Origin: a virus
Length of the DNA: 27,107 nt
Reading direction: 5' to 3' (one strand)
Virus record (IMG/VR): IMGVR_UViG_3300031997_001569
Location: 1-27,107 of that record
Translations under genes and position numbers: made by a program
The notes under the pieces: model-generated
Database searches by the model: none
Seen by the model: the letters and a program-made list of their open reading frames with translations, nothing else
Told to the model about the DNA's origin: nothing
Shown here: piece by piece, positions 875 to 26,518 of the stretch
How positions within the stretch are numbered: the stretch's first letter is position 1
Layout of the letters: each line of letters starts with the position of its first letter

Positions 875-1534
875 ATGAAAAAATATATACCATATAAAAT
901 TGAAGAATCTAAGAATATTTATCAAAAAAAATTATTAAATAGTTCTTATATTATCAAATTTAACGCATTAATTCGATTACAAGAAAAAGCATTATTTTTC
1001 AATAAAATTAGATATAAATTTTCTGAAACATTTCAAATGCCAGAAATTATAGATATGCTTAATGATTTAGAAAAAAATAATATAATAGAAGATTATGTAA
1101 TTGGAGAAGCTACAGCTCTTTTATATTATTCTACTCCTCATCTAACAGATGATATTGATGTTTTTATTAAAAAGAAACAAAAAGGAATTTTATTTAGTCT
1201 TACTGATCTATATGAATTTTTAAAAAATAAATATAAGGCAAAAGAAGAGGGTGAATTTTTAATTATAAAAGGTAATCCAATACAATTTTTAGTTCCTGGA
1301 GATAAACTTACTCAAGAAGCTTTTAATCATCCTAATAATGTACAGATAAGAGGTAAAAAATTTAAGATATTTTCGTTAGAATATCTAATAGCTATTATGT
1401 TATTTTTAGGTAAATCTAAATATAGAGAAAGATTAAGAATTATAAAAGATGAAAATAGATATAATGTGAATATATTAAATAATATTTTACATAATTATAG
1501 TTTATTAGAAAAATGGATTAAAATAGAAATATAA
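875..1534 (+). CDS. Nucleotidyltransferase-fold protein (AbiEii/MNT-like)
   Basis: The 219-residue product has an AbiEii/MNT-type nucleotidyltransferase core. Near residues 74-97 it reads YVIGEATALLYY then T-x-D-D-I-D-V, which fits the Gly-containing loop followed by the metal-binding D-x-D (D93, D95) of this superfamily. The C-terminal part, with LEYLIAIMLFLGK and then R-L-R-I-I-K-D, matches the helix after the catalytic domain in such proteins. The second G of the usual GG/GS loop is E here, so activity is uncertain. Family members include type IV toxins, antibiotic nucleotidyltransferases and uncharacterised phage proteins. The N-terminus MKKYIPYKIEES resembles the M-K-R-Y leader of small proteins on the other strand. 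No antitoxin-like partner is visible beside it. Fold call moderately sure; function unknown. Confidence 0.6.
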   Translation: MKKYIPYKIEESKNIYQKKLLNSSYIIKFNALIRLQEKALFFNKIRYKFSETFQMPEIIDMLNDLEKNNIIEDYVIGEATALLYYSTPHLTDDIDVFIKKKQKGILFSLTDLYEFLKNKYKAKEEGEFLIIKGNPIQFLVPGDKLTQEAFNHPNNVQIRGKKFKIFSLEYLIAIMLFLGKSKYRERLRIIKDENRYNVNILNNILHNYSLLEKWIKIEI

Positions 1535-2956: not shown

Positions 2957-3973
2957 ATGAAAAAAATTAAAAAATTAACTAAAAAACAAGAAGTACAATT
3001 AGAAGTCTACAAAAATAAATGGTTAGAAATTGGTCTATCGACTAAACAACCCTCTTTTGATAGAACAAAAGAAATTATTGATAATGTTTATATTCATCTA
3101 TTAGAAAAACCAGTAGTTCCTGTAGTAGTATTGGATAATCCTTATGATACTTGGGTAGCAGTATGCATTTATGTGTCAGAACAAAATCAAGTTTGGAATC
3201 AAGTTGAGAATCAAGTTAGGAATCAAGTTAGGAATCAAGTTAGGAATCAAGTTGAGAATCAAGTTAGGAATCAAGTTGAGAATCAAGTTGGGAATCAAGT
3301 TGAGAATCAAGTTGGGAATCAAAAAAATTTATTAAGTTTTGTTTATCCTTATTTAGGTGGGAATTTAATGTCGGGTTATTTTTCATTTTATGATTATTGC
3401 TTAAATGAATTAAATCTTGACGTAGACATTAAAGTTAAGAATAATTTTAATGTATATAAAGATATTTCAGAATTATCTTTAATTTATCCTTTTGACGATA
3501 TTTGCTTTGTATGCTCTAAGCCAATAGAAATTCATTTTAATGAAAATAAAGTTTTACATAATTTTACTGGAGCAAGTATTAAATATAAAAATGGATTTGA
3601 GTTATATCATCTTAATGGAGTAAAAGTAACAAAAGAAATTGGTAATATTAAACCAGAAAAAATTACTGTTAATATGATTTTACAAGAACAGAATGTAGAA
3701 GTGAGAAGAGAGCTTTTAAGAAAATTAGGTATAGATAGATTTATTAAAAAACTTAAAACTAAGCCAACTAATATTTCAAAAGATGGAGTATATGAACTTT
3801 ACAAGATTAAAATTGGAAATGATGTTGATGCTACTTATCTTAAAATGTTAAATCCTTCATTAAAAGATACTTATCATTTTGAAGGAGTAGTCAATAGTTG
3901 CAATACAGTAGAAGAAGCACTTGCTTGGAGAGACTCAGAAGATGAATATATTAAACCAGTGAAGTTAACATAA
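2957..3973 (+). CDS. DUF6745-type protein with N-Q-V-x repeat
   Basis: The ribosome site AAGGAG is 8-9 bases before the ATG. The 338-residue product fits the DUF6745 family as I know it: an N-terminal W-L-x-I-G-L-S-T segment, a degenerate tetrapeptide repeat in the middle, a G-Y-F-S-F-Y-D-Y-C-L-N motif, F-D-D-I-C-F-V-C-S-K-P with I-H and L-H residues, a Y-x-x-G-x-x-x-Y-x-x-x-G-V segment, E-x-R-R-x-L-L-R-K-L-G near residue 255, and an E-A-L-A-W motif near the end. Residues 77-122 are eleven N-Q-V-x units plus N-Q; bacterial relatives often have S-V-x-x repeats in the same place. Biochemical role unknown. The genes just downstream, a zinc-ribbon peptide and a 104-residue protein, look like partners. 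A phage carrying this bacterial module is unusual. Confidence 0.8.
   Translation: MKKIKKLTKKQEVQLEVYKNKWLEIGLSTKQPSFDRTKEIIDNVYIHLLEKPVVPVVVLDNPYDTWVAVCIYVSEQNQVWNQVENQVRNQVRNQVRNQVENQVRNQVENQVGNQVENQVGNQKNLLSFVYPYLGGNLMSGYFSFYDYCLNELNLDVDIKVKNNFNVYKDISELSLIYPFDDICFVCSKPIEIHFNENKVLHNFTGASIKYKNGFELYHLNGVKVTKEIGNIKPEKITVNMILQEQNVEVRRELLRKLGIDRFIKKLKTKPTNISKDGVYELYKIKIGNDVDATYLKMLNPSLKDTYHFEGVVNSCNTVEEALAWRDSEDEYIKPVKLT
3185..3322 (+). repeat. 12-base in-frame tandem repeat (11.5 units)
   Basis: The unit is AATCAAGTT plus one variable codon. Copies are identical in the first nine bases; only the last codon changes, among TGG, GAG, AGG and GGG. It codes (N-Q-V-[W/E/R/G])x11 then N-Q in the DUF6745-type protein. 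The near-perfect DNA identity points to recent slippage or unequal exchange. Confidence 0.95.
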
Positions 3974-6601: not shown

Positions 6602-6940
6602 ATGGAATCAAAAAAAATAGATACTACATTAATCTTATATTTAAAAGGAAGATTAGATGCTTATTTATCTAAAACAGTAGAAAAAGAAATTAATGAATTT
6701 ATTAATATAGAAACATCCTGTAATTTTATATTTAATTTAAAAGATGTTGAATATTTAAGTAGTTCAGGTCTTAGAATTTTTGTTTCAACAACAAGAATTC
6801 TTAAAGAGAATAAAAGAATATTAGTTCTTTGTAATATGAATAAGGCAGTTCATAATATATTTAGAATAGTTGAATTATTAGATATGTTTAATATTTTTAA
6901 TACTGAAAAAGAAGCAATAGATTTTTTAAGAAAAAAATAG
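6602..6940 (+). CDS. STAS-domain anti-sigma factor antagonist-like protein
   Basis: The 112-residue product is a complete single STAS domain of the SpoIIAA/RsbV type. It starts with L-I-L-Y-L-K-G-R-L-D-A (first strand and turn) and has D-V-E-Y-L-S-S-S-G-L-R-I-F, which holds the phosphorylatable Ser (S54 by alignment with the D-S-[ST]-G-L motif). It ends with the helical V-E-L-L-D-M-F-N-I-F-N-T-E-K-E-A segment. In hosts such proteins bind an RsbW/SpoIIAB-type kinase and free a sigma factor. The usual Asp before the phospho-Ser is Ser (S53) here. The phage has no cognate kinase in this window, so it may act on a host anti-sigma factor; that is inference. Its ribosome site (AAAGGA) is close to the ATG. 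Confidence 0.85.
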   Translation: MESKKIDTTLILYLKGRLDAYLSKTVEKEINEFINIETSCNFIFNLKDVEYLSSSGLRIFVSTTRILKENKRILVLCNMNKAVHNIFRIVELLDMFNIFNTEKEAIDFLRKK

Positions 6941-6956
6941 AGAGAGAATAAATAAG

Positions 6957-7391
6957 ATGAAATTATATGAAAGTGCTTTTAGTAGAACAGATAAAATATT
7001 AAATTGTGCAATTGGATCAAAAAAATATGAAGTAGATTTAACTGAAAATATAAAAGAGTATACTCATTTATTTGGGCCAAAACTTATAAATATAGAAAAA
7101 GTATTTGGAAAACAACTTAAATTAAAAGGTGGACCTAATCATGCTGAGTATTCTTTTAAGGGGGTTATACCTATAACCCCAGAAGGACTTTTAGCAACTG
7201 CTTATCAATTAACAGGAGATAAAATATTTAAATCTTTAAATTCTGTAATAATTACAATATTTGGAAAAGTACAAGGTTCTTTTGATTATTGGGTAGAAGT
7301 TCCAGATTATAATCATACAGATATAGAAATAGATTTTACTTATTTATACCCCGATACTCTTGAGATTCAAATTGATATAGTGGCAGATTAA
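6957..7391 (+). CDS. Hypothetical protein (144 aa)
   Basis: The gene lies 16 bases after the STAS gene, with an AGAGAG site upstream. The product is beta-rich and acidic at the end (T-D-I-E-I-D-F-T-Y-L-Y-P-D-T-L-E-I-Q-I-D-I). The N-terminus M-K-L-Y-E-S-A-F-S distantly recalls the M-K-R-Y leaders on the other strand but lacks the basic/acidic pattern. No family recognised; a virion component is possible. Confidence 0.65.
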   Translation: MKLYESAFSRTDKILNCAIGSKKYEVDLTENIKEYTHLFGPKLINIEKVFGKQLKLKGGPNHAEYSFKGVIPITPEGLLATAYQLTGDKIFKSLNSVIITIFGKVQGSFDYWVEVPDYNHTDIEIDFTYLYPDTLEIQIDIVAD

Positions 7392-7468: not shown

Positions 7469-7624
7469 ATGCCTGCTGCTAGTCATAAACAACAAAAATA
7501 CATTTATTTTCTTAGAGGAAAATATAAAACTAAAACAGATACTCCAGAAAAATTTAAATGGATATGGGATGAGGGGTATTCAAAAATAAAAGAAAGATAT
7601 ACTCCTTTTAATTTTAAAAAATAA
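7469..7624 (+). CDS. Small hypothetical protein (51 aa)
   Basis: A good AAAGG site 9 bases upstream precedes the ATG. The product is basic, with several Trp and Tyr residues (K-Y-I-Y-F-L-R-G-K-Y-K, F-K-W-I-W-D-E-G-Y). It fills the gap between the 144-residue gene and the next ORF. Function unknown. Confidence 0.55.
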   Translation: MPAASHKQQKYIYFLRGKYKTKTDTPEKFKWIWDEGYSKIKERYTPFNFKK

Positions 7625-7625
7625 T

Positions 7626-7829
7626 GTGAATCTAAGTTCTAATACTCAGTATATAATTCGTAAATATATTAAAAATAATAAATATAGCATAATTCTTAAA
7701 ACATTTAAAATTTCTTTCACAGATATTATAGATATAATTATATTATTACAAGAAGAATATACAAAGACTACAGATGAAAATATTAAAAAAGCTATAGATG
7801 AATTAAGAAAAGAAAGGTTCAAGAAATGA
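7626..7829 (+). CDS. Small hypothetical protein (67 aa), GTG start
   Basis: The only usable start is GTG at 7626, just after the previous stop, and there is no clear ribosome site, so translation would depend on coupling. The product is helical and basic, with a hydrophobic middle (F-T-D-I-I-D-I-I-I-L-L-Q-E-E). Its end overlaps the start of the next gene by 4 bases (ATGA) and contains that gene's AAGAAA-type site. Function unknown. Confidence 0.5.
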   Translation: MNLSSNTQYIIRKYIKNNKYSIILKTFKISFTDIIDIIILLQEEYTKTTDENIKKAIDELRKERFKK

Positions 7830-8935
7830 AAAGATATAAAGTTTATTTTAAAGAGAATTCGCATCCTATTATATTTCATCCTTTTAAAGCTTGGTATTTT
7901 CCAGATAAAGATGAATTTGTTAAATTTAATGCAAATAAAGATCATCTTAATTATGTTAAATCTATGTATCAAGCATACAATGAAGGTGCTATTAGATTTT
8001 ATATAAGTCCTATTGAAGTAGTTATAGAAACACTTCAACAACCTGATAATAATTTATATTTTAAAGTTATAAAATTATTATCAAAAAATATGGAAGATTT
8101 TAATAAAGTTAAAACTATCATATGGGATTCAATTAAAGACAGAAAAACAAAAATATTTAAAATAAAAAAATCTATTGAAATTCCTCTTGAAAAAGGTAAT
8201 CATTTTAAATATGGAAAATTTAAAAATAAAGATGCTATATATGATAGTAATTATATAAATGAAAAAGGAGATCTTATCATAATTACTGATACAGGTAAGG
8301 AAATCCCCGCTTGTAAAATAAGACTAATACAGGAAAATATTTTAGAAGAAGATTTACGATTATCTGATCTTACTAAGCATGCTGGAGTATCTGATCTTAC
8401 TAGAATTTTTATGAAAGATAGACAAAAAATAAAAGGTGCTGGTAATATATCTGCAAAATTAGTCAAAATGAAAGTTAACAAAAAGAAAGGCTGGGTAACA
8501 TTTGTATTCTTATCTGAGCCTACTTATACATTTGATACTCAGATAGTAAAACTAAAAACTTCTGATAAGAGTATGAGGAAAGATAATCTATATACACAAG
8601 AAATTAGAATTTTGGATATATTTTCTTTATTAAAATCAAATCCAGAATTTAAATCATTTAAAGATGTAACTATTGAGGAGATAAAAAAAGTTTTAAAGAA
8701 TGCTGATGTTCAAGTAAGTTGTGATGATCCTAGTTTTTGGTGGCAAGGGGATGCATGGACACTTACCCAATTTGATGCTTCTATAATTCCTTGTGAAATT
8801 GAACCTAAACACTGGGGGAAATTTCATAATTATGGGGATAATTTTTTATGTAAGCATTTGAGTTTAATTTTTAATTCCATAGATTTTTACATTCCTATTA
8901 TGGCAGGAATGATTTATAAATATTTAAATAGATAA
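7826..8935 (+). CDS. M-K-R-Y protein with C-terminal Cys/His (SWIM-like) motif
   Basis: The 369-residue product starts M-K-R-Y-K-V-Y-F-K-E-N, the same leader type as the small proteins near the capsid protease. After a mixed alpha/beta body, residues 294-350 hold V-Q-V-S-C299-D-D-P-S-F-W-W-Q-G and L-C342-K-H344-L-S-L-I-F. I recall phage proteins with a C-x-C-P-x-F...W/Y...G...C-K-H-L pattern, similar to a SWIM zinc site; here the second Cys is Asp (D301), so the site is incomplete. Zinc or DNA binding is therefore uncertain. In the phages I have in mind such proteins are virion-associated. The stop codon overlaps a perfect 16-bp hairpin, and a same-frame ORF without a start follows, so the protein may once have been, or may still be, longer. 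Confidence 0.6.
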   Translation: MKRYKVYFKENSHPIIFHPFKAWYFPDKDEFVKFNANKDHLNYVKSMYQAYNEGAIRFYISPIEVVIETLQQPDNNLYFKVIKLLSKNMEDFNKVKTIIWDSIKDRKTKIFKIKKSIEIPLEKGNHFKYGKFKNKDAIYDSNYINEKGDLIIITDTGKEIPACKIRLIQENILEEDLRLSDLTKHAGVSDLTRIFMKDRQKIKGAGNISAKLVKMKVNKKKGWVTFVFLSEPTYTFDTQIVKLKTSDKSMRKDNLYTQEIRILDIFSLLKSNPEFKSFKDVTIEEIKKVLKNADVQVSCDDPSFWWQGDAWTLTQFDASIIPCEIEPKHWGKFHNYGDNFLCKHLSLIFNSIDFYIPIMAGMIYKYLNR

Positions 8936-9386: not shown

Positions 9387-10853
9387 TTAAATAAGTGAAT
9401 CAAGTGTCATAAGTCTTACAAACTTGGAATTTACAACTTTTGTGTCCTCGATGACTGCTGAATTCCCCTCGGTTACGAAGTTAGGGTATCTTAAACTGGA
9501 ATCTATCTCTGTTAATGTGCCAAAAATTATTGAACAATCCATGGCTTCTTGAGGATTTTTGTAAACAAGTAACATTTCGTTAGTTGCAACAAGTGAAGCA
9601 TCTGCTGGACAAGTATAAACCTCCATATCAGAAAGAGTACCTGATTGATATACGCCATTTTTAACATCACCCATAACATCTTTCCAAAGATCATGGTTTT
9701 TCATATATTCAGTTGCTTTAGAACCAGCAACAATCTTATTGATACCACCTCTTTTGATGTCATCATAAATTACAGCACCAACTCTTCCAATTTCTGTAAG
9801 AAGTCTTTGTGCATGAGATTTATAACTGATTTCACCAGCTGCTGCAAAGTCTGTATCAAAAGTAGCAACTGCATTACTTAAAGCTACGCGCCTTGCTTGA
9901 GCTACTGATCTATAGTCTTTTGCTCTTGCATGTTCTTGACCAACAGCCATAGCCATATAGTCTTTAGCATCTCCAAGACCAGTAGTTTCAAACATAATTT
10001 GTGTCATATCTGAAATTCTATATCCAAGAGGCATAGGACGTGCATTAAAACGAGTTTTAACAAGTTCAAGACTCATTGTACCATAATTAGTATAATTAGT
10101 GGATTGTTCTGAGTTCCAATTATATACTGCAGTAATTGCTACGCCCGCTAAAGGACCAGCACCAGCATAGAAATTTAGAGTAATAACTCCAGTTGCATAA
10201 ACAACAGTATTAGTTGCTGCTGGATCAAGAAGCGTTCCAACAAGAGTACCAGAACCATTATCAACAGCTATAATAGCGCCATCTAACAAAATTTGTGTTT
10301 TAAATGGGATAAGTGGAATATAAGTCATTGCACCAGATACGAATGTTATAGTACCAACACCAGCACCTGTTCCAACTGATCCATAAAATTCTTCACCAGA
10401 GTAATATGGTTTTAAATTTTCATAAGATCTTGTATTTGCAGTTGTTCCTCTAAGAGCTTGCTCATATGTTGCTTGAATATAGAACAGTGCATCATCTGTA
10501 GATGTAAGAGGATATTCTGTAAATATATCACCACGTTTAGAGTTAGCTGAACCTAGAAAAACTGCTTTAAGCATATGTTCTGGTTTTACTGATGTTCCAA
10601 AAGTAGTTGAATATAGATTTTCTTTAATAATCTGTTTGAGAACTTTTTCTTGATTTTCAAGCATAATGGCTGCTTTACGAATTTTAGCAGGATTAGATGC
10701 ATATTTATCTAGCATTTCTTTTCCAACTAAATCTGTTTTAGACCATTTAGATACGCAAGCTTCACCAAGTTTGGATTTAGAACTCCATTCTTTATTGATA
10801 ACTTCTTGCATTTGACCTTCACTTAGTTTTTCTGTTTGTCTTCCATGTTTCAT
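9387..10853 (-). CDS. Major capsid protein (HK97 fold, T4 gp23-like)
   Basis: A 488-residue protein encoded just downstream of the prohead protease-scaffold gene, the usual place for a major capsid protein. The N-terminal ~78 residues are charged and helical with several hydrophobic-x-E sites (L-S-E, L-G-E, I-K-E78), as expected of a delta region removed by a gp21-type protease; the exact site is inferred. A beta-rich insertion with low-complexity Gly/Ala/Thr follows (about residues 150-250), perhaps an extra surface domain. The C-terminal half (I-S-D-M-T-Q-I-M-F-E-T-T-G-L, I-K-R-G-G-I-N-K-I-V-A-G-S-K, L-L-V-Y-K-N-P-Q-E-A) fits the gp23-type core. GAGG lies about 13 bases before the ATG, somewhat far. 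GC content and codon use are richer than in neighbours, as common for highly expressed capsid genes. Confidence 0.85.
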   Translation of the reverse strand: MKHGRQTEKLSEGQMQEVINKEWSSKSKLGEACVSKWSKTDLVGKEMLDKYASNPAKIRKAAIMLENQEKVLKQIIKENLYSTTFGTSVKPEHMLKAVFLGSANSKRGDIFTEYPLTSTDDALFYIQATYEQALRGTTANTRSYENLKPYYSGEEFYGSVGTGAGVGTITFVSGAMTYIPLIPFKTQILLDGAIIAVDNGSGTLVGTLLDPAATNTVVYATGVITLNFYAGAGPLAGVAITAVYNWNSEQSTNYTNYGTMSLELVKTRFNARPMPLGYRISDMTQIMFETTGLGDAKDYMAMAVGQEHARAKDYRSVAQARRVALSNAVATFDTDFAAAGEISYKSHAQRLLTEIGRVGAVIYDDIKRGGINKIVAGSKATEYMKNHDLWKDVMGDVKNGVYQSGTLSDMEVYTCPADASLVATNEMLLVYKNPQEAMDCSIIFGTLTEIDSSLRYPNFVTEGNSAVIEDTKVVNSKFVRLMTLDSLI

Positions 10854-11160: not shown

Positions 11161-12387
11161 TTATATCTTAAATTCGTATTTTTGAAATTTTTGATCTTTA
11201 TTATCTTTTACTGATTCTCTGAGTTTATGAATATCATTACCAAATTTATTCTCAAACATAGAAACTTTTTTAACTGCTTCTAATAAAGATCTTGATTTAA
11301 GAATTTGTTTTTGAATGTCTCTTACAGCCGGTTTATTTCTTACAACTGCTTTATAATATTCAATAACTTCTTTTACTGGAGCTTTTGATTCTTTAACTTC
11401 AATTCTTTTTTTCTGAGTAATTGCTTCTTTTTTAGCAGCTCTTACTGCTGCCATTTTATCTTCATTTGATTCTTTTTCATCTTCTTCATCATCATCATCT
11501 GATTCTTCTAATTCATCATCATCATCTGAATCATCTTCTTCTGCTTCTTCCATTTCTTCTTCTTCATCTTCAGAATCGTCTTCATCAGTTTCTTTTACTA
11601 ATTTTTTCTTTTTAGAGGTAATTGATTCTTTTTTTTCTTCTTTATCATCTTCCTCTTCTTCTGCTTCATACAAATCTTCATCATCTTCAAAGCCAAATGC
11701 ATCATCTATAATATCATTTCCAGTATCTATAAAAGAATCTTCTTCATCATCAAATTCATATCCATATTCTTCTTCAAGAATTTTTTCAAGTTTAGATATT
11801 GTTTTTTCTGCAAGTTGAAGTGCTATTTTTGTTTTATTAATCTTTTTACTCATATTTTTTCTTTCCTCTTTAAACTTAGTAATATCTTGTTCTCTAAGTT
11901 GAGTATCTTCTTCATATATTTTTAAATCTGCATTTCTTTTTTCTATTTCTTCTATAAATAGTTTAATATCTTCTTCCATTTTTACTCTATCAGTAGAAAA
12001 GAGTTCAATATCTTCTTTCATTTTTTCTATTGATTTTTGAGTATCTTTATTAACAGCTTTTTCAACAATTACTTGCGCTTTTTGAAGGTTTTCTTTAAGA
12101 GTATTAATTGTTTCACAAGCTACTTGATACTTTTCAGTAAGAGTTTCTAAAGTTTCCTTAGATTCCTTAAGTTCTTTTTGAGCTAGTTCTTTTTGCTCAG
12201 CAAGTTTAGTTTGAATTGACATAATTGCAGTTTCAACTTGCGCTTTTTGTTCTGCCATTTCTGGAATAATTGTATCAGAAACTTCTTTTAGCTCTTTTAT
12301 AGCTTCAACGTAGTTTTCTTTAGCAATTGCTTCCTTTATGGTAGATTTAATTTGGTTTTTAATTGAGAGTTCCAAATATTTATCCAT
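11161..12387 (-). CDS. Scaffold protein from internal start (408 aa)
   Basis: In-frame ATG at 12387 (M216 of the fused protein) has a strong site, AGAGGT, 7-8 bases upstream, and a perfect promoter motif 28 bases upstream. The product would be the scaffold part alone: M-D-K-Y-L-E-L-S-I-K start, coiled coil, acidic stretch and basic tail. Making scaffold in excess over protease from an in-frame internal start is known in other phages, for example lambda C/Nu3. The protease domain ends near residue 185, so the start falls cleanly between the two parts. The arrangement of sites is visible; actual use is inference. Confidence 0.7.
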   Translation of the reverse strand: MDKYLELSIKNQIKSTIKEAIAKENYVEAIKELKEVSDTIIPEMAEQKAQVETAIMSIQTKLAEQKELAQKELKESKETLETLTEKYQVACETINTLKENLQKAQVIVEKAVNKDTQKSIEKMKEDIELFSTDRVKMEEDIKLFIEEIEKRNADLKIYEEDTQLREQDITKFKEERKNMSKKINKTKIALQLAEKTISKLEKILEEEYGYEFDDEEDSFIDTGNDIIDDAFGFEDDEDLYEAEEEEDDKEEKKESITSKKKKLVKETDEDDSEDEEEEMEEAEEDDSDDDDELEESDDDDEEDEKESNEDKMAAVRAAKKEAITQKKRIEVKESKAPVKEVIEYYKAVVRNKPAVRDIQKQILKSRSLLEAVKKVSMFENKFGNDIHKLRESVKDNKDQKFQKYEFKI

Positions 12388-13032
12388 GTTTTTTACCTCT
12401 ACCGTTTTTTCTTTTAATTTATTAGTAATATCTTTTTCAATAATTTTTATTTCTTCTTTTACACTTTCTTCTAAATTTTCTTGAGTAGCATATACATTTT
12501 GAGATGGTTTTCTTACCCAATCGCAGTTTTCAAACTCGAAATCTTCAGTCATAACCGTTTTTCCGTCAGATTCAGATAAAGTCCCAAAGGCTACTGTACT
12601 AAAACCAACTTTACCACCGGCTTTTGCTTTTTCAAGTAATAATGATCCTATTGCACCAATACAATATAAATCTGCTGTTGCTATATTTTCACCAACTTTA
12701 AAATTTTTCCAAACCCCGGCAGTATCTAAAACACTACCATCTCCCTCTGCTGCATGGTCCGCCAAACAATCGGCCCCTTCAAATGTTTTTTTCTTTTCTA
12801 CTTCAGTCCATAATTCTTTTGGGTAAATTCTTGAATTTGCATTTTCAATAAATCTAGTAACTGGTACATTTTTAAGTACACCACGACATTCATATTGTTT
12901 ACCTGCTACAGCTTCAATAAATTTAGTTTCTATTTTAATATCATCTATATTAGGTAAATAAGAAATACTTTCAATAAGTAATATCTTATTTTTTTGTTTT
13001 GCTCTTTCTTCTAATGAAATCTTTGTACTCAT
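11161..13032 (-). CDS. Prohead protease fused to scaffold (T4 gp21-type + scaffold)
   Basis: 623 residues. Residues ~35-185 are a gp21-type prohead serine protease: N-A-N-S-R-I-Y-P-K-E-L-W (residues 64-75, the family's 'NxNxRIYP' motif), L-A-D-H93 (catalytic His) and K-V-G-F-S145-T-V-A-F-G (catalytic Ser). From ~190 to ~400 the sequence is Glu/Lys-rich heptad-like coiled coil, then a very acidic Asp/Glu stretch (~425-545), then a basic helical tail. The second part has scaffold character. The protease would mature scaffold, capsid and internal proteins inside the prohead. T4 uses separate genes; here they are one ORF, with a likely internal start at M216. Start ATG has AGAGGT upstream and overlaps the preceding ORF's stop (ATGA). 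A terminator follows. Confidence 0.85.
   Translation of the reverse strand: MSTKISLEERAKQKNKILLIESISYLPNIDDIKIETKFIEAVAGKQYECRGVLKNVPVTRFIENANSRIYPKELWTEVEKKKTFEGADCLADHAAEGDGSVLDTAGVWKNFKVGENIATADLYCIGAIGSLLLEKAKAGGKVGFSTVAFGTLSESDGKTVMTEDFEFENCDWVRKPSQNVYATQENLEESVKEEIKIIEKDITNKLKEKTVEVKNMDKYLELSIKNQIKSTIKEAIAKENYVEAIKELKEVSDTIIPEMAEQKAQVETAIMSIQTKLAEQKELAQKELKESKETLETLTEKYQVACETINTLKENLQKAQVIVEKAVNKDTQKSIEKMKEDIELFSTDRVKMEEDIKLFIEEIEKRNADLKIYEEDTQLREQDITKFKEERKNMSKKINKTKIALQLAEKTISKLEKILEEEYGYEFDDEEDSFIDTGNDIIDDAFGFEDDEDLYEAEEEEDDKEEKKESITSKKKKLVKETDEDDSEDEEEEMEEAEEDDSDDDDELEESDDDDEEDEKESNEDKMAAVRAAKKEAITQKKRIEVKESKAPVKEVIEYYKAVVRNKPAVRDIQKQILKSRSLLEAVKKVSMFENKFGNDIHKLRESVKDNKDQKFQKYEFKI
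12415..12428 (-). promoter_or_regulatory. Internal candidate late promoter inside protease-scaffold gene
   Basis: Reads TTACTAATAAATTA on the coding strand, coding for part of D-I-T-N-K-L. It lies 28 bases before the internal ATG at 12387, the same spacing as other copies. It would give a scaffold-only transcript. Confidence 0.65.
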
Positions 13033-13166
13033 ATATTAACCTCTAAATGAAAATCTTCTTTTCCTTTATAATTATTAGTAATAATAAAATTGAAATTTTT
13101 AAATTCATCTAAAACTAAATTTAAATATTCTAACATATCTTTTTGTTCCCAATATTTTTCTATCAA
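13029..13166 (-). CDS. Small ORF (45 aa), TTG start, coupled to protease gene
   Basis: The best start is TTG at 13166, with AAGGA 6 bases upstream and TAA of the preceding 14-residue peptide just before it. The stop TGA overlaps the protease ATG (ATGA), so it is well placed for coupling. The product (I-E-K-Y-W-E-Q-K-D-M-L-E-Y-L-N) is acidic and helical. It is in the same frame as the M-N-R-Y peptide upstream, separated only by TAA, so it may be the second half of one protein. A promoter motif lies within it. Confidence 0.5.
   Translation of the reverse strand: MIEKYWEQKDMLEYLNLVLDEFKNFNFIITNNYKGKEDFHLEVNI
13069..13081 (-). promoter_or_regulatory. Candidate late promoter motif TTACTAATAATTA (protease-scaffold)
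   Basis: Exact consensus on the coding strand, 37 bases before the protease ATG, followed by TATAAAGGA. It lies inside the small ORF at 13029-13166, where it codes I-I-T-N-N-Y. Confidence 0.7.
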
Positions 13167-13211
13167 TTAAATTCCTTCAACTTTTTCTTGTAATGTTTTA
13201 TATCTATTCAT
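13167..13211 (-). CDS. M-N-R-Y leader peptide (14 aa)
   Basis: ATG is in a TAATG overlap with the preceding gene's stop. It codes M-N-R-Y-K-T-L-Q-E-K-V-E-G-I and then TAA; the same frame continues open for 45 codons after the stop. It has the M-(K/N)-R-Y start of the neighbouring small proteins and a possible L-Q-E protease site. It may be a true short peptide, or the start of a gene interrupted by TAA. Confidence 0.45.
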   Translation of the reverse strand: MNRYKTLQEKVEGI

Positions 13212-13489
13212 TATTCTTCTTCTTTATCTTGCCCATAATTTATTAGTTCATCACCTAATTTTGTAAACATATCTCCAACATACTTAAAAGCGCGTCTTGC
13301 CCTGCGATCACCACTTGTATGGAGAGAAGTCATTTTATCAAGAAACATTTTACGTCCCTCTTCGTTGCCAAAAGAATTATCCCGTAAAAATTCTAATATT
13401 TCTGTTACCCCTGGCTCTAACCAATCAGGTATACCATTGTTATTCTTATCATCTTCATCTTCACTATAATATCTTATGTATCTATTCAT
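13211..13489 (-). CDS. M-N-R-Y small protein with Ca-loop-like motif (92 aa)
   Basis: Starts M-N-R-Y-I-R-Y-Y-S-E-D-E-D-D, the leader shared by the genes of this cluster. It then has D-D-K-N-N-N-G-I-P-D-W-L-E, which matches the short Asp/Asn calcium-binding loop seen in thrombospondin type 3 or dockerin-like repeats ('DxNxNGIPDxLE'). The rest is helical and charged (G-D-R-R-A-R-R-A-F-K-Y-V-G-D-M-F-T-K-L-G-D). Ribosome site AAGGATAT is upstream. Likely an internal head protein by context; calcium binding is inference. Confidence 0.6.
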   Translation of the reverse strand: MNRYIRYYSEDEDDKNNNGIPDWLEPGVTEILEFLRDNSFGNEEGRKMFLDKMTSLHTSGDRRARRAFKYVGDMFTKLGDELINYGQDKEEE

Positions 13490-13491
13490 AA

Positions 13492-13671
13492 TTATATCCT
13501 TGCTTTAAGATCTCTACATAATCTAGAAATAACAGAAAACTTTATATTTTCTGTATTATTTTCAGATGGAATTTGAGTAAAAGCACTATCAATTGCAAAT
13601 CCAATTGCTTTAATTACTTTAGAATCTTCAATACCAAATTTATTTGTAAGATAATTAATCGCTTCTACCAC
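13492..13671 (-). CDS. ORF after in-frame TAA (59 aa from GTG)
   Basis: This frame directly continues the 103-residue gene after its TAA; the first available start is GTG, 2 codons on, and it has no ribosome site. The product (V-V-E-A-I-N-Y-L-T-N-K-F-G-I-E-D-S-K-V) is helical. Its pattern K-F-G ... I ... A-I/L ... L-x-x-D-L resembles the C-terminal half of the 92-residue protein at 14964-15242. This suggests it is the C-terminal half of one M-K-R-Y protein cut by a stop codon, or expressed by readthrough or coupling. Its end overlaps the ribosome-site region of the next gene. Confidence 0.5.
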   Translation of the reverse strand: MVEAINYLTNKFGIEDSKVIKAIGFAIDSAFTQIPSENNTENIKFSVISRLCRDLKARI

Positions 13672-13677
13672 AGCATA

Positions 13678-13989
13678 TTAAGCTGATGCAACATTATTTA
13701 TATTAATCATAGATTCTTTAATCTTTTTATCTTTCTTTTTAGAAACAGTTGATTCTTTATAATCTTCTGAATTCATTTTAGAAGTAAAATCTGATAAGTC
13801 TTGAATGAATTTATCTGCAACTTTTGTGTTTGCAAATACAAGAGCTTTAAATAATGCTATTGCAGTATTTTGTGCTTCTTCATCTTTACCCCAGTTAAGA
13901 TCAATAAGATCCTTTATAGCTTTTTCTGATTTAGCTTCTTCTTCATCTTCTTTAATTACTTGTTTAAAATTTTGTTTATACCTTTTCAT
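13678..13989 (-). CDS. M-K-R-Y small protein (103 aa)
   Basis: Starts M-K-R-Y-K-Q-N-F-K-Q-V-I-K-E-D-E-E-E-A, then a helical domain (N-T-A-I-A-L-F-K-A-L-V-F-A-N-T-K-V-A-D-K-F-I-Q-D-L-S-D-F split over residues ~40-68) and a Lys-rich tail. Its ATG directly follows the TAG of the upstream gene. The frame stays open past its TAA for another 61 codons, so the original protein may have been about 165 residues. Likely packaged with the capsid, by the leader and by neighbourhood. Confidence 0.6.
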   Translation of the reverse strand: MKRYKQNFKQVIKEDEEEAKSEKAIKDLIDLNWGKDEEAQNTAIALFKALVFANTKVADKFIQDLSDFTSKMNSEDYKESTVSKKKDKKIKESMININNVASA

Positions 13990-14223
13990 CTACTTTTCAA
14001 CCTCTATATTAGGAAATTTTGATTTAACTGCAAATTTAACTTTTAATATTTCCTCTGGTGTACCATTTGCAGATACTCTTGCTAAAGCATTTCTTGCATG
14101 TGATTCATCTGGAATAGGATATTTTCTTTCTTTAGGAAAAACAAATGCACTATCAGGAAGATCTCGTTTTTGTTTATATGTTAATGCATCTTCTTTAAAA
14201 TTAAATGAATTATATCTATTCAT
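13990..14223 (-). CDS. M-N-R-Y protein with L-P-D-S-A-F / H-A-R-N-A-L-A-R domain (77 aa)
   Basis: Leader M-N-R-Y-N-S-F-N-F-K-E-D is followed by a domain I recognise from bacteria and phages: K-R-D-L-P-D-S-A-F-V-F-P-K-E-R-K-Y-P-I, then H-A-R-N-A-L-A-R-V, G-T-P-E-E and K-F-P at the end. This is often annotated as DUF6582-like (number from memory). It is found as a stand-alone protein and attached to phage head proteins; biochemical role unknown. Here it is a short fusion of the local leader and this domain, which supports the idea that the leader is a transferable tag. Confidence 0.7.
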   Translation of the reverse strand: MNRYNSFNFKEDALTYKQKRDLPDSAFVFPKERKYPIPDESHARNALARVSANGTPEEILKVKFAVKSKFPNIEVEK

Positions 14224-14225
14224 AT

Positions 14226-14663
14226 TTATGCTTCTTTTTTTAATTCTGCAGCGAAGTCTGTTTTTGTAGTATAGTAAACATCATTCTCAAAAAAATGATC
14301 ACTTGATATCTTTCTAGCAAACATATCTTGAATAGCTTTTATGACTTTATTATCTTCATATTTTTTATCTAGAGATACGTGTTCATATTCTATTTCAAAT
14401 CCTATATCTAATTGTTCTTTTGTTATTTTAGAAGTATCTCCTTTAGATTTACCACCAATAAGAATAGTAGTTAACATAGCATAAACATATTGCTCAAGTA
14501 TATCAGCTTCTATTCCTAAATCTTCTGCTAATTTATGTATACCACTATCATCTTTTGGAAAAGGGTTTTTTGTTAAATAATCTTTTATTTTTTGTGGTAT
14601 AGAAATATCTGTTAAATCTGATAATGAATCTTCTTCTTTAAATTTTCTTATATATCTTTTCAT
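14226..14663 (-). CDS. M-K-R-Y protein with DUF5661-like domain (145 aa)
   Basis: Starts M-K-R-Y-I-R-K-F-K-E-E-D-S, nearly identical in DNA to the start of the gene at 15242. It then has I-H-K-L-A-E-D-L-G-I-E-A-D-I-L-E-Q-Y-V-Y (a 'HklAddlGidpe.lEe.vY' segment) and L-D-I-G-F-E-I-E-Y-E-H-V with a later D-V-Y-Y-T segment, the order I know from DUF5661-type phage proteins (usually 'GiEVEmEHT ... HL ... DYYtrL'). Function unknown; often found near phage head genes. A second leader-plus-domain fusion. Confidence 0.65.
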   Translation of the reverse strand: MKRYIRKFKEEDSLSDLTDISIPQKIKDYLTKNPFPKDDSGIHKLAEDLGIEADILEQYVYAMLTTILIGGKSKGDTSKITKEQLDIGFEIEYEHVSLDKKYEDNKVIKAIQDMFARKISSDHFFENDVYYTTKTDFAAELKKEA

Positions 14664-14676
14664 TTTTATATTTCTT

Positions 14677-14967
14677 TTATTTTATATTATTTTTTAAATT
14701 TTTCATACAAAGGGTAACAACTTTTTTAATATCTAATTCAAGAAATTTATCTGGATCTTTCTCATGTTTTTTAAAATATAAATATAACGCTTTTTTAAGC
14801 ATATCTGGTAATAATTGTCCAAAACTCCCAGCTATTGCATTTTCTGCATTATCATATAACATTTCTCCCATTAATTCAAACAATACTTCTTCATCCATAA
14901 GAATTTGAATAGTCTTATTAAAAATCTTTTGTGTATCTATATTTTCTTTTATTTTATATCTTTTCAT
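14677..14967 (-). CDS. M-K-R-Y small helical protein (96 aa)
   Basis: Starts M-K-R-Y-K-I-K-E-N-I-D-T and continues as an all-helical protein (I-L-M-D-E-E-V-L-F-E-L-M-G-E-M-L, L-P-D-M-L-K-K-A-L-Y-L-Y-F-K-K). The ATG overlaps the TGA of the gene upstream (ATGA). The leader is shorter than in its neighbours (I-K-E is a possible protease site). No known family. Confidence 0.6.
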   Translation of the reverse strand: MKRYKIKENIDTQKIFNKTIQILMDEEVLFELMGEMLYDNAENAIAGSFGQLLPDMLKKALYLYFKKHEKDPDKFLELDIKKVVTLCMKNLKNNIK

Positions 14968-15242
14968 ATTATGTCTTTCATTAAATTTATTATAGCTTTT
15001 GCTGCATTTTTATTATCCAATTTAACATTTGCCTGTACTATACTTAAACACATTCTAGCTATTGCATCATCTACAGAACCACCAAATTTTTTAGTGTATT
15101 CTTCAGAATATTCTTTAGCTATTAATCTTAATTTTTTATCTAATTCATGAGAAACAATTATTGTCTCTACCTCCTTTAATCTATTAAAATTCTTTGATAA
15201 ATATGAGTCTTCCTCTTTAAATTTTCTTGTATATCTTTTCAT
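14964..15242 (-). CDS. M-K-R-Y small helical protein (92 aa)
   Basis: First gene of the leader-carrying cluster. Starts M-K-R-Y-T-R-K-F-K-E-E-D-S-Y, followed by a helical body (E-V-E-T-I-I-V-S-H-E-L-D-K-K, then K-F-G-G-S-V-D-D-A-I-A-R-M). A promoter motif ends 14 bases before the ATG and GAAGG lies about 9 bases before it. It ends in TGA overlapping the next ATG. The C-terminal half resembles the split ORF at 13492-13671. Confidence 0.6.
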   Translation of the reverse strand: MKRYTRKFKEEDSYLSKNFNRLKEVETIIVSHELDKKLRLIAKEYSEEYTKKFGGSVDDAIARMCLSIVQANVKLDNKNAAKAIINLMKDII

Positions 15243-17345: not shown

Positions 17346-20010
17346 TAATTTTTGTTAATATTAAAGCAGTTTCTTTTTTAATTGTTATTGTAGATGTTCC
17401 CACCTCTGAGGCAAAATATAATTCAAGATTTCCTGAAACAGTAACTACTACATGACCTTCTATAATAATTAAATTATCTACATTTTGTACTTTTACTCCT
17501 ACTAATCCACCAGTAGACCAATCTGCTAATGCACTTTTAGCTCTTACAGAATTAGCTCCTAAAACTCCTCCTGTAACTGCAGCTTGTGCTTGATTAACTA
17601 CTCCTGTTGCTGCAATTGCTGAATCATCTACCCAACTCATATTTGCAACGAAAGAAGTTACTGTTCCTGTGTGATTTACAGATAGTTTAATACCTGTTGA
17701 TGTGGCAGCCGATTGCCATAATAAATAATATTTAAAAGCGTAAGTTCCTACTCCTACAACAAAATCTAAATTAGTTACTTTAGCTGCACTTGTAGTATTA
17801 TTTGTTATTTCTGCAGATAATGCTAAAGTTGTTACTTTATTAACACTTTGTACAAATGCAGTTGATGCTGCAGAAGTATCATTAGTACTTGCTATTTTAG
17901 TTGGTATAATTGGAGATTCTATAAAAGTTTTTACTCCATTAACTGATTGAACTCCTGTAATATTTACAAATTCACTTATATTTCCAAAAGTATTATCGCC
18001 TTTAGTATAATTAGAAGATGTTCCACCTGGAATTAATTTTGCAAGAGATATACTATTATCTACTATTTTAGTTCCTTGAATACTTATTGATGTAATTTTA
18101 CTACCACTTATAGAATTATCTGCTATTGTATTAAATGAAAGAGGGTCTAATATAGATATACTAGTTTCTTTCATAATTTGAACTCTAACTTTATCTCCAG
18201 ATCTAGGAAGTTGATTTGCTACAAGTTTAGAATCAATAGTAAGTTGACTTCCAGCTCCAGCAAATAAAGTTAAAACTACCCCACTAACTTCATATAAAGA
18301 TTGATCAAGTACAACTCCATTTACTGAAACATTCATATATTCAATCCCAATTGGGGTTTGGGATAAAGTATAAACATCTTGACTTGCTGTAGCCGTAAAA
18401 GAATCTACATATATTTTACTATAGGAAGATAATTTAGAAATTGGTATGCTTGAATCTACAATTTTACTTCCATCTATTGTATTATCTATTAAAGCAGCAA
18501 TAGATAAAGGATCAAAAGAATATATATTTCCAAGTCGTACAATCTGTACTCGTAATTTATCACCATCTATTGGAAATTGATTTGTAATTAAAGTTCCATC
18601 TAATGTTGTTTGACTTCCTGCTCCATTTAATAAAGTAAGGGTTGTATCTGCTAAAGTATATAAAGATTGATCTAATACTATTCCATTGATAGATATAACC
18701 ATATATTCTATCCCAATAGGGGTGTTTGTTAAAATAATTTCAGTTTGATTTGTAGTTAAAGTAAAAGATTCAACTGCAATTAAAGTAGGGGTTATTCCAG
18801 CAACAGAATCAACATATAATTTATTTGCCACTTCAAAATTAGTTGTAGGAGTTCCTGAAGGAGTTAATGGGCAACTTGTAAATGTTTTTATTCCTGAAAT
18901 TGTTTCATTTCCCGTAAGATGTACGGCTTCTAAATCAAGTTCTTCTATTGCTGTTTGTACAGTTGTACTAGAAATTGTACCTACAGGATTAAAAGAAACA
19001 GCAGATGCAGTTGTTGATACATTACCTGCTGCCATAGGTAAGCTAGAAACAGTTCTATAATCATCTTGAGTAGTATCTATTGCTTGTAATATTCCATCAG
19101 CTCTTATTATTAATCTATAAATTGGTTTCATTTCTGGAGATAATCCAAAACTACCAAGATTTGGAAATGGAATATCTCTAGCTGCCGCTACATTTTTATA
19201 GCCATTATCTGCTGCCACTGCTGCTGATACTGTTTCAACTAATATTGTTATAGGTGTATGAACAGCTGTAGTAACATATACAAATGCATTTATAAATCTA
19301 TTAACAGCAGAAGACATTGTAACTAATGAATAAGTAGAATTAACATATTGAGGTAAATTTCCAACTTGTTTAAAAGGAACAGTAGATGCTGTTTTATCAA
19401 ATGCCATTGTATTAGCGCCAGTTTGCCAAAATAATCTACAAGTATTTGGGGTTGGAAAAGCGCTAGAAGCATTTACTACAAATTCAATATCTTCATCAGC
19501 AATTTCTCCTGCTGTAGTAGCAAATGTAGCTGCTGATCCAGTACCCCCATTATGTGTGAGAGTAATACCACTACGATATCTACAACCTACTGTATAATGT
19601 GCCCATATATGCCATCTATGGTCTCTATTATAAAGATGTCTTTCATCATATATAAGTCCATAATCAGTACCATTCCATAATACAGTTGCAATTAGTATAT
19701 TTGAAGTTATATCGAATCCAGGAAAATTTTTAGTTGCTAATATATTACCAGTTACTCCATCAAAATATATATAATATAATCCAGAAGTTCCATCTGTTAA
19801 AGTTGCTGTTTTATTTGAAGATACAATTATTTTTTGTCCTTGATAATAATAAGTAATTGGATTAGTAGTAGCACCAAGAGTAAATGTTGTAGTAGTTATA
19901 TTTGAAGGTAATGGGTTAAATGTATCAACAGTTCGAGCTAATATTCCATGATAGTAACTTTTTCCTGCAAGATCGGTTATTAAATTTTTTACTTGTTTTT
20001 GACTAACCAT
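17341..20010 (-). CDS. Tail fibre protein with duplicated module (889 aa)
   Basis: The N-terminal ~330 residues form a beta-rich attachment region (D-L-A-G-K-S-Y-Y-H-G-I-L-A-R, I-Y-D-E-R-H-L-Y-N-R-D-H-R-W-H). Then come T4-fibre-like 'G-x-K-T-F' elements at ~372 (I-S-G-I-K-T-F-T) and again near 700 (V-N-G-V-K-T-F). Between them a ~110-residue module occurs twice (about 415-527 and 537-650), each with P-I-G-I-E-Y-M, N-G-[IV]-V-L-D-Q-S-L-Y, G-A-G-S-Q and G-D-K-[LV]-R-V-Q-I, followed by D-N-[ST]-I-x-G-S-K-I. The C-terminal ~130 residues form a separate beta domain that may bind the receptor. Last gene of the fibre operon. Ribosome site AGGAG lies in a switchable hairpin. Confidence 0.8.
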   Translation of the reverse strand: MVSQKQVKNLITDLAGKSYYHGILARTVDTFNPLPSNITTTTFTLGATTNPITYYYQGQKIIVSSNKTATLTDGTSGLYYIYFDGVTGNILATKNFPGFDITSNILIATVLWNGTDYGLIYDERHLYNRDHRWHIWAHYTVGCRYRSGITLTHNGGTGSAATFATTAGEIADEDIEFVVNASSAFPTPNTCRLFWQTGANTMAFDKTASTVPFKQVGNLPQYVNSTYSLVTMSSAVNRFINAFVYVTTAVHTPITILVETVSAAVAADNGYKNVAAARDIPFPNLGSFGLSPEMKPIYRLIIRADGILQAIDTTQDDYRTVSSLPMAAGNVSTTASAVSFNPVGTISSTTVQTAIEELDLEAVHLTGNETISGIKTFTSCPLTPSGTPTTNFEVANKLYVDSVAGITPTLIAVESFTLTTNQTEIILTNTPIGIEYMVISINGIVLDQSLYTLADTTLTLLNGAGSQTTLDGTLITNQFPIDGDKLRVQIVRLGNIYSFDPLSIAALIDNTIDGSKIVDSSIPISKLSSYSKIYVDSFTATASQDVYTLSQTPIGIEYMNVSVNGVVLDQSLYEVSGVVLTLFAGAGSQLTIDSKLVANQLPRSGDKVRVQIMKETSISILDPLSFNTIADNSISGSKITSISIQGTKIVDNSISLAKLIPGGTSSNYTKGDNTFGNISEFVNITGVQSVNGVKTFIESPIIPTKIASTNDTSAASTAFVQSVNKVTTLALSAEITNNTTSAAKVTNLDFVVGVGTYAFKYYLLWQSAATSTGIKLSVNHTGTVTSFVANMSWVDDSAIAATGVVNQAQAAVTGGVLGANSVRAKSALADWSTGGLVGVKVQNVDNLIIIEGHVVVTVSGNLELYFASEVGTSTITIKKETALILTKIT

Positions 20011-20017
20011 ATTTTAA

Positions 20018-20061
20018 CTCCTATGTTATATAACAATAGGAGGGATAGTTTATATCCCTCC
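20018..20061 (-). promoter_or_regulatory. Two mutually exclusive hairpins masking the fibre ribosome site
   Basis: On the - strand RNA, hairpin A pairs GGAGGGATA (20061-20053) with TATCCCTCC (20047-20039). Hairpin B pairs CTCCTAT (20042-20036) with ATAGGAG (20024-20018), which holds the ribosome site 7 bases before the fibre ATG, around an inner GTTATATAAC. Both need 20039-20042, so only one can form. Hairpin A frees the ribosome site; B hides it. Confidence 0.7.
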
Positions 20062-20083
20062 ATAGAGTTTTTTAATTTAAATA

Positions 20084-20959
20084 TTAAACAAAATATTTTA
20101 CTGAAAAAGTATCAGTTACATCTAATGCAATAATAAAATGTCCTGTCGTATTAGAATCCCAAATAAAATCAGAAGATTTCACTTGTTCAACTCCATTTTC
20201 AAGAATTTCTATTTGATTATTATCTCTAAAAGCATTAGCAGAAGCTCCAAGAACTACTCCTGAATATTCACCTGATGGAGTAGATATTCCAGATACTCCT
20301 CCAGCTCCAGTTGTAAGAGTTACAACTTCATTTGCAGCAAATGCGGTTGTAACAACATATTTAGCAACTTTTTGAGAAGCTCCTGTTGGTGCTACCATAT
20401 CTGGAGTTATTGATCCAATTGCAACTTCATAAGTAGGAAGATTTTCTTCTGTTAACATTACTCTTACAGCAAATTCTATTGTTGCTGTAATTGGAACAAG
20501 AGTTACTGTTCCACCAGCAGCAATATAAACAAATGATACTTGTAAATTTTCAGAAGCTGCTGCTCCAATCGCTGCTCCATCAAGAGTACCATTAGCAGCT
20601 TGAATTAAACCAAAAACTTCAAAATCTAAATACGTAATAGGATCATTTGTTGTAGCATCTCTGATAGGAACAATATTAGCTATATTTCCTAATGAATCAG
20701 AAATATAAGTAGTAGCGGCTGTTCCAACTGCACCAGCAAGTTCTGCTGCAACTACACCACTAGAATAAGTAGAGGCAGTTCCTAATGAAATATTCCCTGG
20801 TAATTCTGTAGCACTGATCAAACTATATTGATCAGCTGTTAATGTTAGTGTTTGAGTAGGAACAAATGGTAGTGCTTTTACCCATGCTTTTTTTGCAAGA
20901 TTGTAAAGCGATGCAAAATTGCCGCCAAATGCTACTTGTCTTTTGTTAATTTTAGCCAT
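20084..20959 (-). CDS. Virion/tail protein, Ala/Thr-rich beta protein (291 aa)
   Basis: Starts M-A-K-I-N-K-R-Q-V-A-F-G-G-N-F-A-S-L-Y-N, as in many tail-fibre-adjacent proteins, and is then a beta-rich, Ala/Thr/Gly-rich protein with few Lys, richer in GC than the neighbours, as for abundant virion proteins. The last ~45 residues (N-N-Q-I-E-I-L-E-N-G-V-E-Q-V-K, D-F-I-W-D-S, L-D-V-T-D-T-F) are related to the end of the next protein at 20970-21596. Probably a fibre or decoration protein; exact role unknown. Confidence 0.65.
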   Translation of the reverse strand: MAKINKRQVAFGGNFASLYNLAKKAWVKALPFVPTQTLTLTADQYSLISATELPGNISLGTASTYSSGVVAAELAGAVGTAATTYISDSLGNIANIVPIRDATTNDPITYLDFEVFGLIQAANGTLDGAAIGAAASENLQVSFVYIAAGGTVTLVPITATIEFAVRVMLTEENLPTYEVAIGSITPDMVAPTGASQKVAKYVVTTAFAANEVVTLTTGAGGVSGISTPSGEYSGVVLGASANAFRDNNQIEILENGVEQVKSSDFIWDSNTTGHFIIALDVTDTFSVKYFV

Positions 20960-26166: not shown

Positions 26167-26176
26167 ATATAATTAC

Positions 26177-26518
26177 CTATTTCATTTTAGCATATGCCAT
26201 TATTTTTCTAGATACTCCAATTGCGATTAATTTTTTTTGTTTTTCAAATTTTTCAGGATAAGAATCTGCCATATTCTGTAATACTTCATTTGCAGAATCT
26301 AGACCAGAAATAATTCCATCACCTATAAAACTAATACAAGTTGATCTATTCATATTTTTCTTTTTCATAATAAACATAATACATTTAGCAATAGATTCTT
26401 CCGCATCTTGTACAGTATTTATTGTAATGGAAGCTTCTGTTAATATTTCTTTATTTTCTTTAAGAATATCTTTATATAATGTATTGTCTCCACTTCTATC
26501 TATTTCATATTTTTTCAT
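26177..26518 (-). CDS. M-K-K-Y helical protein (113 aa)
   Basis: Starts M-K-K-Y-E-I-D-R-S-G-D-N, a weaker form of the leader in the 13-15 kb cluster, and is otherwise helical (Y-K-D-I-L-K-E-N-K-E-I-L, Q-D-A-E-E-S-I-A-K-C-I-M-F-I-M-K-K-K). In pattern it resembles the helical proteins at 14964-15242 and 13492-13671. It lies in the fibre operon; AAGGGG ribosome site. A packaged protein encoded away from the main cluster, or a coincidental start. Confidence 0.55.
   Translation of the reverse strand: MKKYEIDRSGDNTLYKDILKENKEILTEASITINTVQDAEESIAKCIMFIMKKKNMNRSTCISFIGDGIISGLDSANEVLQNMADSYPEKFEKQKKLIAIGVSRKIMAYAKMK

Follow-up and report, generated by a model that had tools for sequence, protein, structure and literature searches.

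A short N-terminal leader beginning M-(K/N)-R-Y is shared by otherwise unrelated proteins encoded beside the head maturation protease gene of an uncultured phage, represented here by a 27,107-base, A+T-rich fragment that forms its own IMG/VR virus record (IMGVR_UViG_3300031997_001569; hereafter, the window). The virus infects bacteria and is distantly related to phage T4. The leader is very probably a T4-type capsid-targeting propeptide carried by an expanded set of proteins that are packaged and probably injected. During head assembly, its first ~10 residues (M-K/N-R-Y-x-x-phi-phi-x-E, where phi is hydrophobic) would recruit each protein to the prohead core, and the gp21-type protease encoded next door would cut after the Glu to release the body in mature form within the head. 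This body would stay there, probably to be delivered with the DNA and to take immediate effect on the new host, like the T4 internal proteins (IPs) and Alt. The bodies themselves would be unrelated, rapidly exchanged cargo. As the leader resembles the T4 head-loading signal, it probably marks proteins carried into the infected cell.

Distribution of the leader

An earlier note on this DNA had described seven consecutive minus-strand genes with M-(K/N)-R-Y starts, at positions 15242, 14967, 14663, 14223, 13989, 13489, and 13211. All seven starts exist, and six of them open full genes, but the seventh (13211) opens a 14-codon open reading frame (ORF). Likewise, a leaderless ORF (13671-13492) separates two members of the run, whose genes are therefore not strictly consecutive. 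The starts read MKRYTRKFKEED (15242), MKRYKIKENID (14967), MKRYIRKFKEED (14663), MNRYNSFNFKED (14223), MKRYKQNFKQVIKED (13989), MNRYIRYYSEDED (13489), and, followed directly by a stop codon, MNRYKTLQEKVEGI (13211). Similar starts had been proposed at 7826, 875, and 26518, and these are real, since homologues in other contigs bear the leader too.

Related IMG/VR contigs were gathered by searches with the protease and the capsid protein (n = 6; G001, 155.6 kb; G002, 77.1 kb; G003, 71.0 kb; G004, 18.4 kb; G005, 30.6 kb, with a protease 99% identical to that of the window; and G006, 18.3 kb). The leader DNA pattern added a more distant relative (G007, 99.9 kb) as well as a fragment (G010) of a phage resembling G003, while the unrelated contigs G008 and G009, in which matches to the pattern are due to chance, served as negative controls. 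Among isolate phages, a tblastn search with the window protease gave no match, and the capsid protein gave only two distant ones (QdP_Psa3 and phiXF1); no such leader was present among the visible N termini near the head genes of these two phages. The leader DNA pattern had six matches in genome contigs, none of which started an ORF of at least 45 amino acids and which thus pointed to no host.

Starts of the form M[KNSQ][RK]Y were counted among automatically called genes. They were found in 8/43 genes of the window, where 0.09 were expected, and in 21/245 (G001), 18/118 (G002), 9/109 (G003), 8/43 (G005), and 25/172 (G007) genes of the related contigs. Expected numbers per contig ranged from 0.06 to 2.3; T4 has a single such start, and G008 and G009 have none. 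These counts are approximate, as the contigs are incomplete and the gene caller was simple. The caller missed two more real leader starts in the window, and variant starts (MERY, MIRY, MVKRY, and TTG or GTG starts) push the true number higher. Conversely, one of the eight window genes, at 4139 (MKKYQQGD...), was rejected as a probable nonleader because its family is conserved along its whole length (MKKFQQGD in G001).

The leader also emerged from unsupervised clustering of N termini (residues 2 to 11). In T4, used as a positive control, the procedure recovered IPI, IPII, IPIII, and gp61.1 in one cluster of four genes; five MNYxKIY-type proteins formed a second, larger cluster unrelated to these. 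The largest clusters in G001, G002, G003, and G007 had 22, 19, 10, and 21 members, respectively, nearly all of the MKRY type, whereas the largest cluster after shuffling had 3. Clustering of two marine T4-like phages (Pelagibacter phage HTVC008M and ~100 kb of cyanophage S-PM2) and of G008 gave nothing above shuffled N termini. Together, the enrichment of starts and the clustering reject a chance origin of the shared leader.

Independence of the leader from the protein bodies

Sorted by body, the 91 leader proteins encoded by the window and five related contigs make up 64 families, in agreement with the earlier proposal that the bodies are unrelated and that it is the leader that is conserved among relatives. 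Most bodies cannot be aligned with one another, and common descent of whole leader proteins was rejected for this reason. Where the bodies are unrelated, DNA identity between the leaders falls from 0.88 over the first 12 nucleotides to ~0.33 by nucleotides 37 to 48. G001 and G004, which are essentially identical on both flanks of the cargo genes adjoining the protease gene, offer a natural example of cargo being replaced while the leader stays fixed. Here the leaders MNRYIRYYSEDEDDK and MKRYKR are identical, but of the two bodies that follow, one differs moderately and the other completely; leader gene 6 (Table 1) has homologues in both contigs, with different bodies behind an identical leader. 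Bodies also occur without the leader: the DUF6582 body of leader gene 4 has a leaderless homologue in Klebsiella phage MY01 (MAKLTTKQRNKLPDS...), and in Streptomyces phage Kela a larger protein ends with this body.

Such a pattern could in principle arise at the DNA or RNA level, if a common translation-initiation or recombination sequence encoded MKRY incidentally. The upstream context of leader genes in the window, G001, G002, G003, and G007 is indeed unusual, with AGGAG-like sites at 7/82 leader genes versus 152/427 others (p 2e-7) and AGGTA at 24/82 versus 49/427. Furthermore, starts 15242 and 14663 are identical at 37 of their first 40 bases, much as the earlier note had reported; the 30 bases upstream are dissimilar. 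The T4 late promoter TATAAATA was not enriched upstream of leader genes. However, synonymous codons for K, R, F, and E in the leader are used at near genome-wide frequencies (Tyr is shifted toward TAC in G007), and selection therefore acts mainly on the protein, which disfavors constraint on the DNA alone. In addition, amino acid substitutions in the leader are conservative (K, N, S, Q, or E at residue 2 and R or K at residue 3), and the register of the motif described below is maintained over variable DNA. We consider an origin of the similarity in DNA or RNA very improbable.

Motif, register, and the adjacent protease

The leader ends in a phi-x-E motif in a conserved register. Glu at residues 8 to 14 completes such a motif in 7/8 leader genes of the window and in 16/21 (G001), 14/18 (G002), 7/9 (G003), 6/8 (G005), and 22/25 (G007) leader genes elsewhere. 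The resulting rates are 75 to 88%, compared to 16 to 31% of other genes, and in no contig did any of 500 shuffles exceed the observed count. The Glu stands most often at residue 10 (36 genes), 9 (24 genes), or 11 (11 genes); phi is F (49), L (20), I (8), or Y (8), and the residue that follows the Glu is mostly S, D, or E. In MKRYIRKFKEEDSLS, an example of such a peptide, cleavage is predicted after E10. The earlier note had placed a T4-like cleavage context near residue 10. A motif ending there is present, but its form is (F/L/I/Y)-x-E rather than (L/I)-x-E, and the putative cleavage site should be read accordingly.

Suppressor analysis of T4 IPIII has shown that residues 4 and 7 function in targeting, while residues 8 and 10 function in processing (PMC9026906). 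In the profile of the leader, Y occupies position 4, L, F, and Y are commonest at position 7, F is commonest at position 8, and E is most often at position 10. The likeness to the T4 capsid-targeting sequence that had been suggested thus extends to the published determinants. The leader also has a phage-specific form, as residue 7 is L, I, or V in 23/25 leaders of G007 versus 10/74 elsewhere (p 1e-12). Such a difference would be expected if every phage reads its leaders with a partner of its own, which may be the scaffold or the protease.

The gene downstream of the run had been proposed to encode a gp21-type protease. The protease family matches T4 gp21 in a profile comparison (hhalign E 5.2e-5 over 168 columns), with the regions of the catalytic His and Ser aligned and with H93 and S145 invariant in five protease sequences. 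The G002 homologue has a PHROG match (PHROG 207, head maturation protease; E 3.6e-11), and the G007 homologue has a weak Pfam Peptidase_S77 match below the cut-off (E 0.025). The assignment is therefore supported, with the correction that the protein is one long chain with an acidic, coiled, scaffold-like tail. Near its N terminus, the window protease reads LLIE/S (a slash marks a predicted or possible cleavage site throughout), and T4 gp21 reads LLIE/T. In two contigs, the protease itself has a leader-like start (MSRYRYLEDKAKLKG in G003 and MNKYKTLQEQ in G001). Downstream of the leader run and the protease-scaffold gene (13032-11161) lies the major capsid protein gene (10853-9387). The window capsid protein itself has no Pfam match, and direct comparison with T4 gp23 is weak (E 0.046). 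However, the window-based profile detects the G007 homologue (E 1.2e-114), which scores 25.3 bits against the Pfam Gp23 cut-off of 24.4, and it matches a solved Gp23 at 5.7e-6.

The basic residues of the leader (K and R), as well as the genes in which phi-x-E is out of register or missing, would also suit a retained, uncleaved scaffold- or DNA-binding tail, which would target the head or the nucleoid without being a propeptide. Against this stand the strong enrichment of phi-x-E in the right register, the protease gene adjoining the leader cluster, and the similar possible sites near the N termini of the protease (LLIE/S) and the capsid protein (LGE/A). An uncleaved tail is thus an unlikely alternative to a propeptide.

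A leader of this kind might instead address another destination, such as export, the membrane, the tail, or an intracellular replication compartment. Some leader genes are located far from the capsid genes, and two outlying MKKY starts in G001 (91098 and 134055) resemble secretion signals. These two, however, lack the remainder of the leader, which has no hydrophobic core and agrees, position for position, with the T4 capsid signal. Moreover, the tail sheath, a baseplate protein, and the identified replication proteins of G001 do not carry it. Targeting to a destination other than the head is accordingly given very little credence.

Several observations weigh against a capsid-targeting propeptide. 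Approximately 12 to 25% of leader genes per contig have no phi-x-E in register; several HExxH proteins (see below) are among these exceptions and have a later FLNE/A-like site. The window protease matches no Pfam or PHROG family, and an AlphaFold2 prediction of the protease from four sequences failed (predicted local distance difference test score, 31) and was not used. Only seven related contigs were found, one of which (G005) is close to the window. Presence in the virion, cleavage, injection, and effector action are all inferred from sequence.

Cargo proteins

Few bodies belong to recognized families. Besides those in the window, bodies above the Pfam cut-off include DUF5662 (G005 15202), phosphoribosyltransferase (G001 67712), SprT-like metallopeptidase (G007 98614), and DUF5661 (G007 40808), while nucleotidyltransferases (G005 3433 and G007 8044) and a YunG-like protein fall below it. 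HExxH-type motifs occur in 8/111 leader genes versus 3/500 others (p 1e-4), several of them in one family with the form HE(L/I)(V/I)HR. Such a motif is no proof of activity. In G001, the genes for DNA polymerase, helicases, ligase, NrdD, tail sheath, and a baseplate protein are not leader genes. One leader protein (G007 99018-99503; L063 9018-9503) has a YHGTTS motif, which by eye recalls ADP-ribosyltransferases, the activity of T4 Alt; it has no Pfam match and is a lead only.

Proteins injected by phages meet the first defenses of the host, but the lack of sequence similarity among their bodies makes them hard to recognize. A short tag whose motif is clear allows them to be listed from sequence alone, here as ~64 body families, mostly of no recognized function and including a few predicted enzymes. 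By analogy with the T4 Ips, the bodies may be anti-defense or takeover proteins, and the list is a candidate set for new proteins of this kind. It is somewhat probable that a single phage-specific tag loads an enlarged arsenal, encoded by ~1/7 to 1/12 of the genes, of exchangeable injected proteins, including predicted metallopeptidases and nucleotidyltransferases, with bodies replaced by recombination. If this is true, the injected proteome would be directly readable from sequence, since the bodies change behind a fixed leader.

Genes of the window

The coordinates of the leader genes and associated features are given in Table 1.

Table 1. Leader genes, related ORFs, and head genes of the window (slashes, predicted or possible cleavage sites)
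Feature	Position	Strand	Description
Leader gene 1	14964..15242	-	MKRYTRKFKE/EDSYLSK..., 92 aa; body of no recognized family
Leader gene 2	14677..14967	-	MKRYKIKE/NID..., 96 aa; body of no recognized family
Leader gene 3	14226..14663	-	MKRYIRKFKE/EDS...; DUF5661-like body; leader-bearing homologues in G001, G003, G007
Leader gene 4	13990..14223	-	MNRYNSFNFKE/DAL...; DUF6582 / phrog_16160 body
Leader gene 5	13678..13989	-	MKRYKQNFKQVIKE/D...; N-terminal part of a cargo gene apparently broken by one TAA
Leaderless ORF, 59 aa	13492..13671	-	In-frame continuation of leader gene 5 past a single TAA
Leader gene 6	13211..13489	-	MNRYIRYYSE/DEDDKNNNGIPDWL..., 92 aa; homologues in G001, G003, G004
Mini-ORF, 14 codons	13167..13211	-	MNRYKTLQEKVEGI, then stop; resembles G001 protease N terminus (MNKYKTLQEQAKAKG)
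Head maturation protease, T4 gp21 type	11161..13032	-	Protease part ~residues 1-190; H93 and S145 conserved
Major capsid protein, Gp23-family related	9387..10853	-	Possible cleavage contexts [LIM]GE/A (residue 31) and [IM][KR]E/N (residue 78), conserved
Outlying leader gene	7826..8935	+	MKRYKVYFKE/NSH...; leader-bearing homologues in G001, G007
Outlying leader gene	875..1534	+	MKKYIPYKIEE/S...; DUF2204 nucleotidyltransferase; G001 homologue begins MERYTPHKFEES
Outlying leader gene	26177..26518	-	MKKYEIDRSGDN...EILTE/ASITIN; small protein, in four contigs
Cargo homologue with degenerate leader	6957..7391	+	MKLYESAFSR

The body of leader gene 3 matches Pfam DUF5661 below the cut-off (E 8.4e-5), and its G007 homologue matches above it (1.1e-10). 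That of leader gene 4 matches Pfam DUF6582 above the cut-off (3.5e-7) and PHROG phrog_16160 (7.3e-17). Homologues of leader gene 5 in G001, G002, G003, and G007 all have a leader-type start. By eye, the leaderless ORF that follows this gene resembles the C-terminal part of the single-ORF G002 homologue (41803-42594), for which tblastn gave no separate match; the two window ORFs are apparently one cargo gene split by an in-frame TAA. The same G002 homologue contains a second, internal leader (MKRYEPKFKVKE), which suggests a gene fusion there. Behind the TAA of the mini-ORF, a 45-codon ORF continues in frame (the two together occupy 13029-13211, minus strand); it has a homologue only in G005, the contig near-identical to the window. 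The pair may be a leader peptide, a broken cargo gene, or a case of reinitiation.

The product of the outlying gene at 875 matches Pfam DUF2204 above the cut-off (E 4.6e-6). The protein encoded at 26177..26518 has a longer, propeptide-like N terminus whose phi-x-E end precedes A/I-S. The homologues of the degenerate gene at 6957..7391 in G001 and G002 retain MKRYKRFKE and MKRYKRFEES, respectively. The gene at 7826-8935 (plus strand) differs from G005 24876-26291 by ~100 residues in midprotein in otherwise near-identical phages, and the longer G005 form holds an internal leader-like KQYKPQFKES. A small protein (7469-7624, plus strand) has a leader-like C-terminal end (...KERYTPFNFKK), and its G002 homologue (19311-20207) has a similar motif, MERYTPYF, inside a longer protein. 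Other plus-strand genes encode a protein with a STAS domain of the kind seen in anti-sigma factor antagonists (6602-6940; Pfam E 1.9e-20) and a DUF6745 protein (2957-3973; E 6e-18) with a run of four-residue NQV(R/E/G) repeats; G005 has a repeat tract as well. Apparent homing endonuclease genes, recognized by eye, are located among cargo and capsid genes. They are GIY-YIG-like in G003 (L009 4889-5632 and 6918-7787) and HNH-like in G001 (151702-152394), where the gene lies between the protease and capsid genes and is absent from G004.

Comparison with known systems

The principle of the leader is already known for T4, in which IPI, IPII, IPIII, and Alt carry a capsid-targeting sequence that is cut by gp21 (PMC3012670, PMC9026906); T4 IPII and IPIII start with MKTYQEFIAE/A. 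Both systems have a ten-residue N-terminal leader on unrelated bodies, with Tyr or Phe at residue 4, a hydrophobic residue at 7/8, and Glu at 10, as well as a gp21-type protease and a Gp23-related capsid protein. In both, small genes lie directly upstream of the protease gene; those of T4 are the core genes 67 and 68, upstream of gene 21. However, the leader is MKTYQEF in T4 and MKRYK(R/P/S) here, phi is mostly Phe here, and the protease is joined to a scaffold-like tail in a single chain and has a leader-like start in some contigs. The cargo here includes predicted enzymes, and the metabolic and replication gene set of G001 also differs from that of T4 (e.g., NAD-dependent ligase). The T4-like set of internal proteins that had been predicted is thus present as a leader set but is several times larger than that of T4, with 9 to 25 or more leader genes per contig compared to 4.

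The T4 proteins Ip1, Ip2, and Ip3 differ in the Type IV restriction enzymes that they inhibit (PMC12373910). Leaders have been described in related T-even phages, from which at least 10 Ips have been reported (PMC12373910), and the ip loci of these phages encode injected Type IV restriction inhibitors that share only the leader (PMC12373910, PMC9391042). Dissimilar bodies apart from the N-terminal leader and fast body turnover are common to these loci and the genes described here, although none of the present bodies was matched to any known Ip. A limited search of the open literature gave no precedent for so large a set, for a leader whose form is specific to the lineage, or for leaders on metallopeptidases.

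An N-terminal signal that directs a protein to the head is also known from phage P1, in which a signal within the first 30 residues of DarB sends this large protein into the head (PMC9024508). The P1 Dar proteins, however, have no consensus N terminus, and the leader shared by the proteins studied here sets them apart from the Dar type. In the giant phages SPN3US and phiKZ, propeptides of head proteins are mostly >100 residues long, and SPN3US cuts at A-x-E (PMC5694885). Cleavage after Glu, like that proposed here, and the identical N termini of the diverged paralogues gp53 and gp54 are points of likeness, whereas the leader of the present phages comprises ~10 residues with an aromatic or aliphatic residue in the phi position of its phi-x-E motif.

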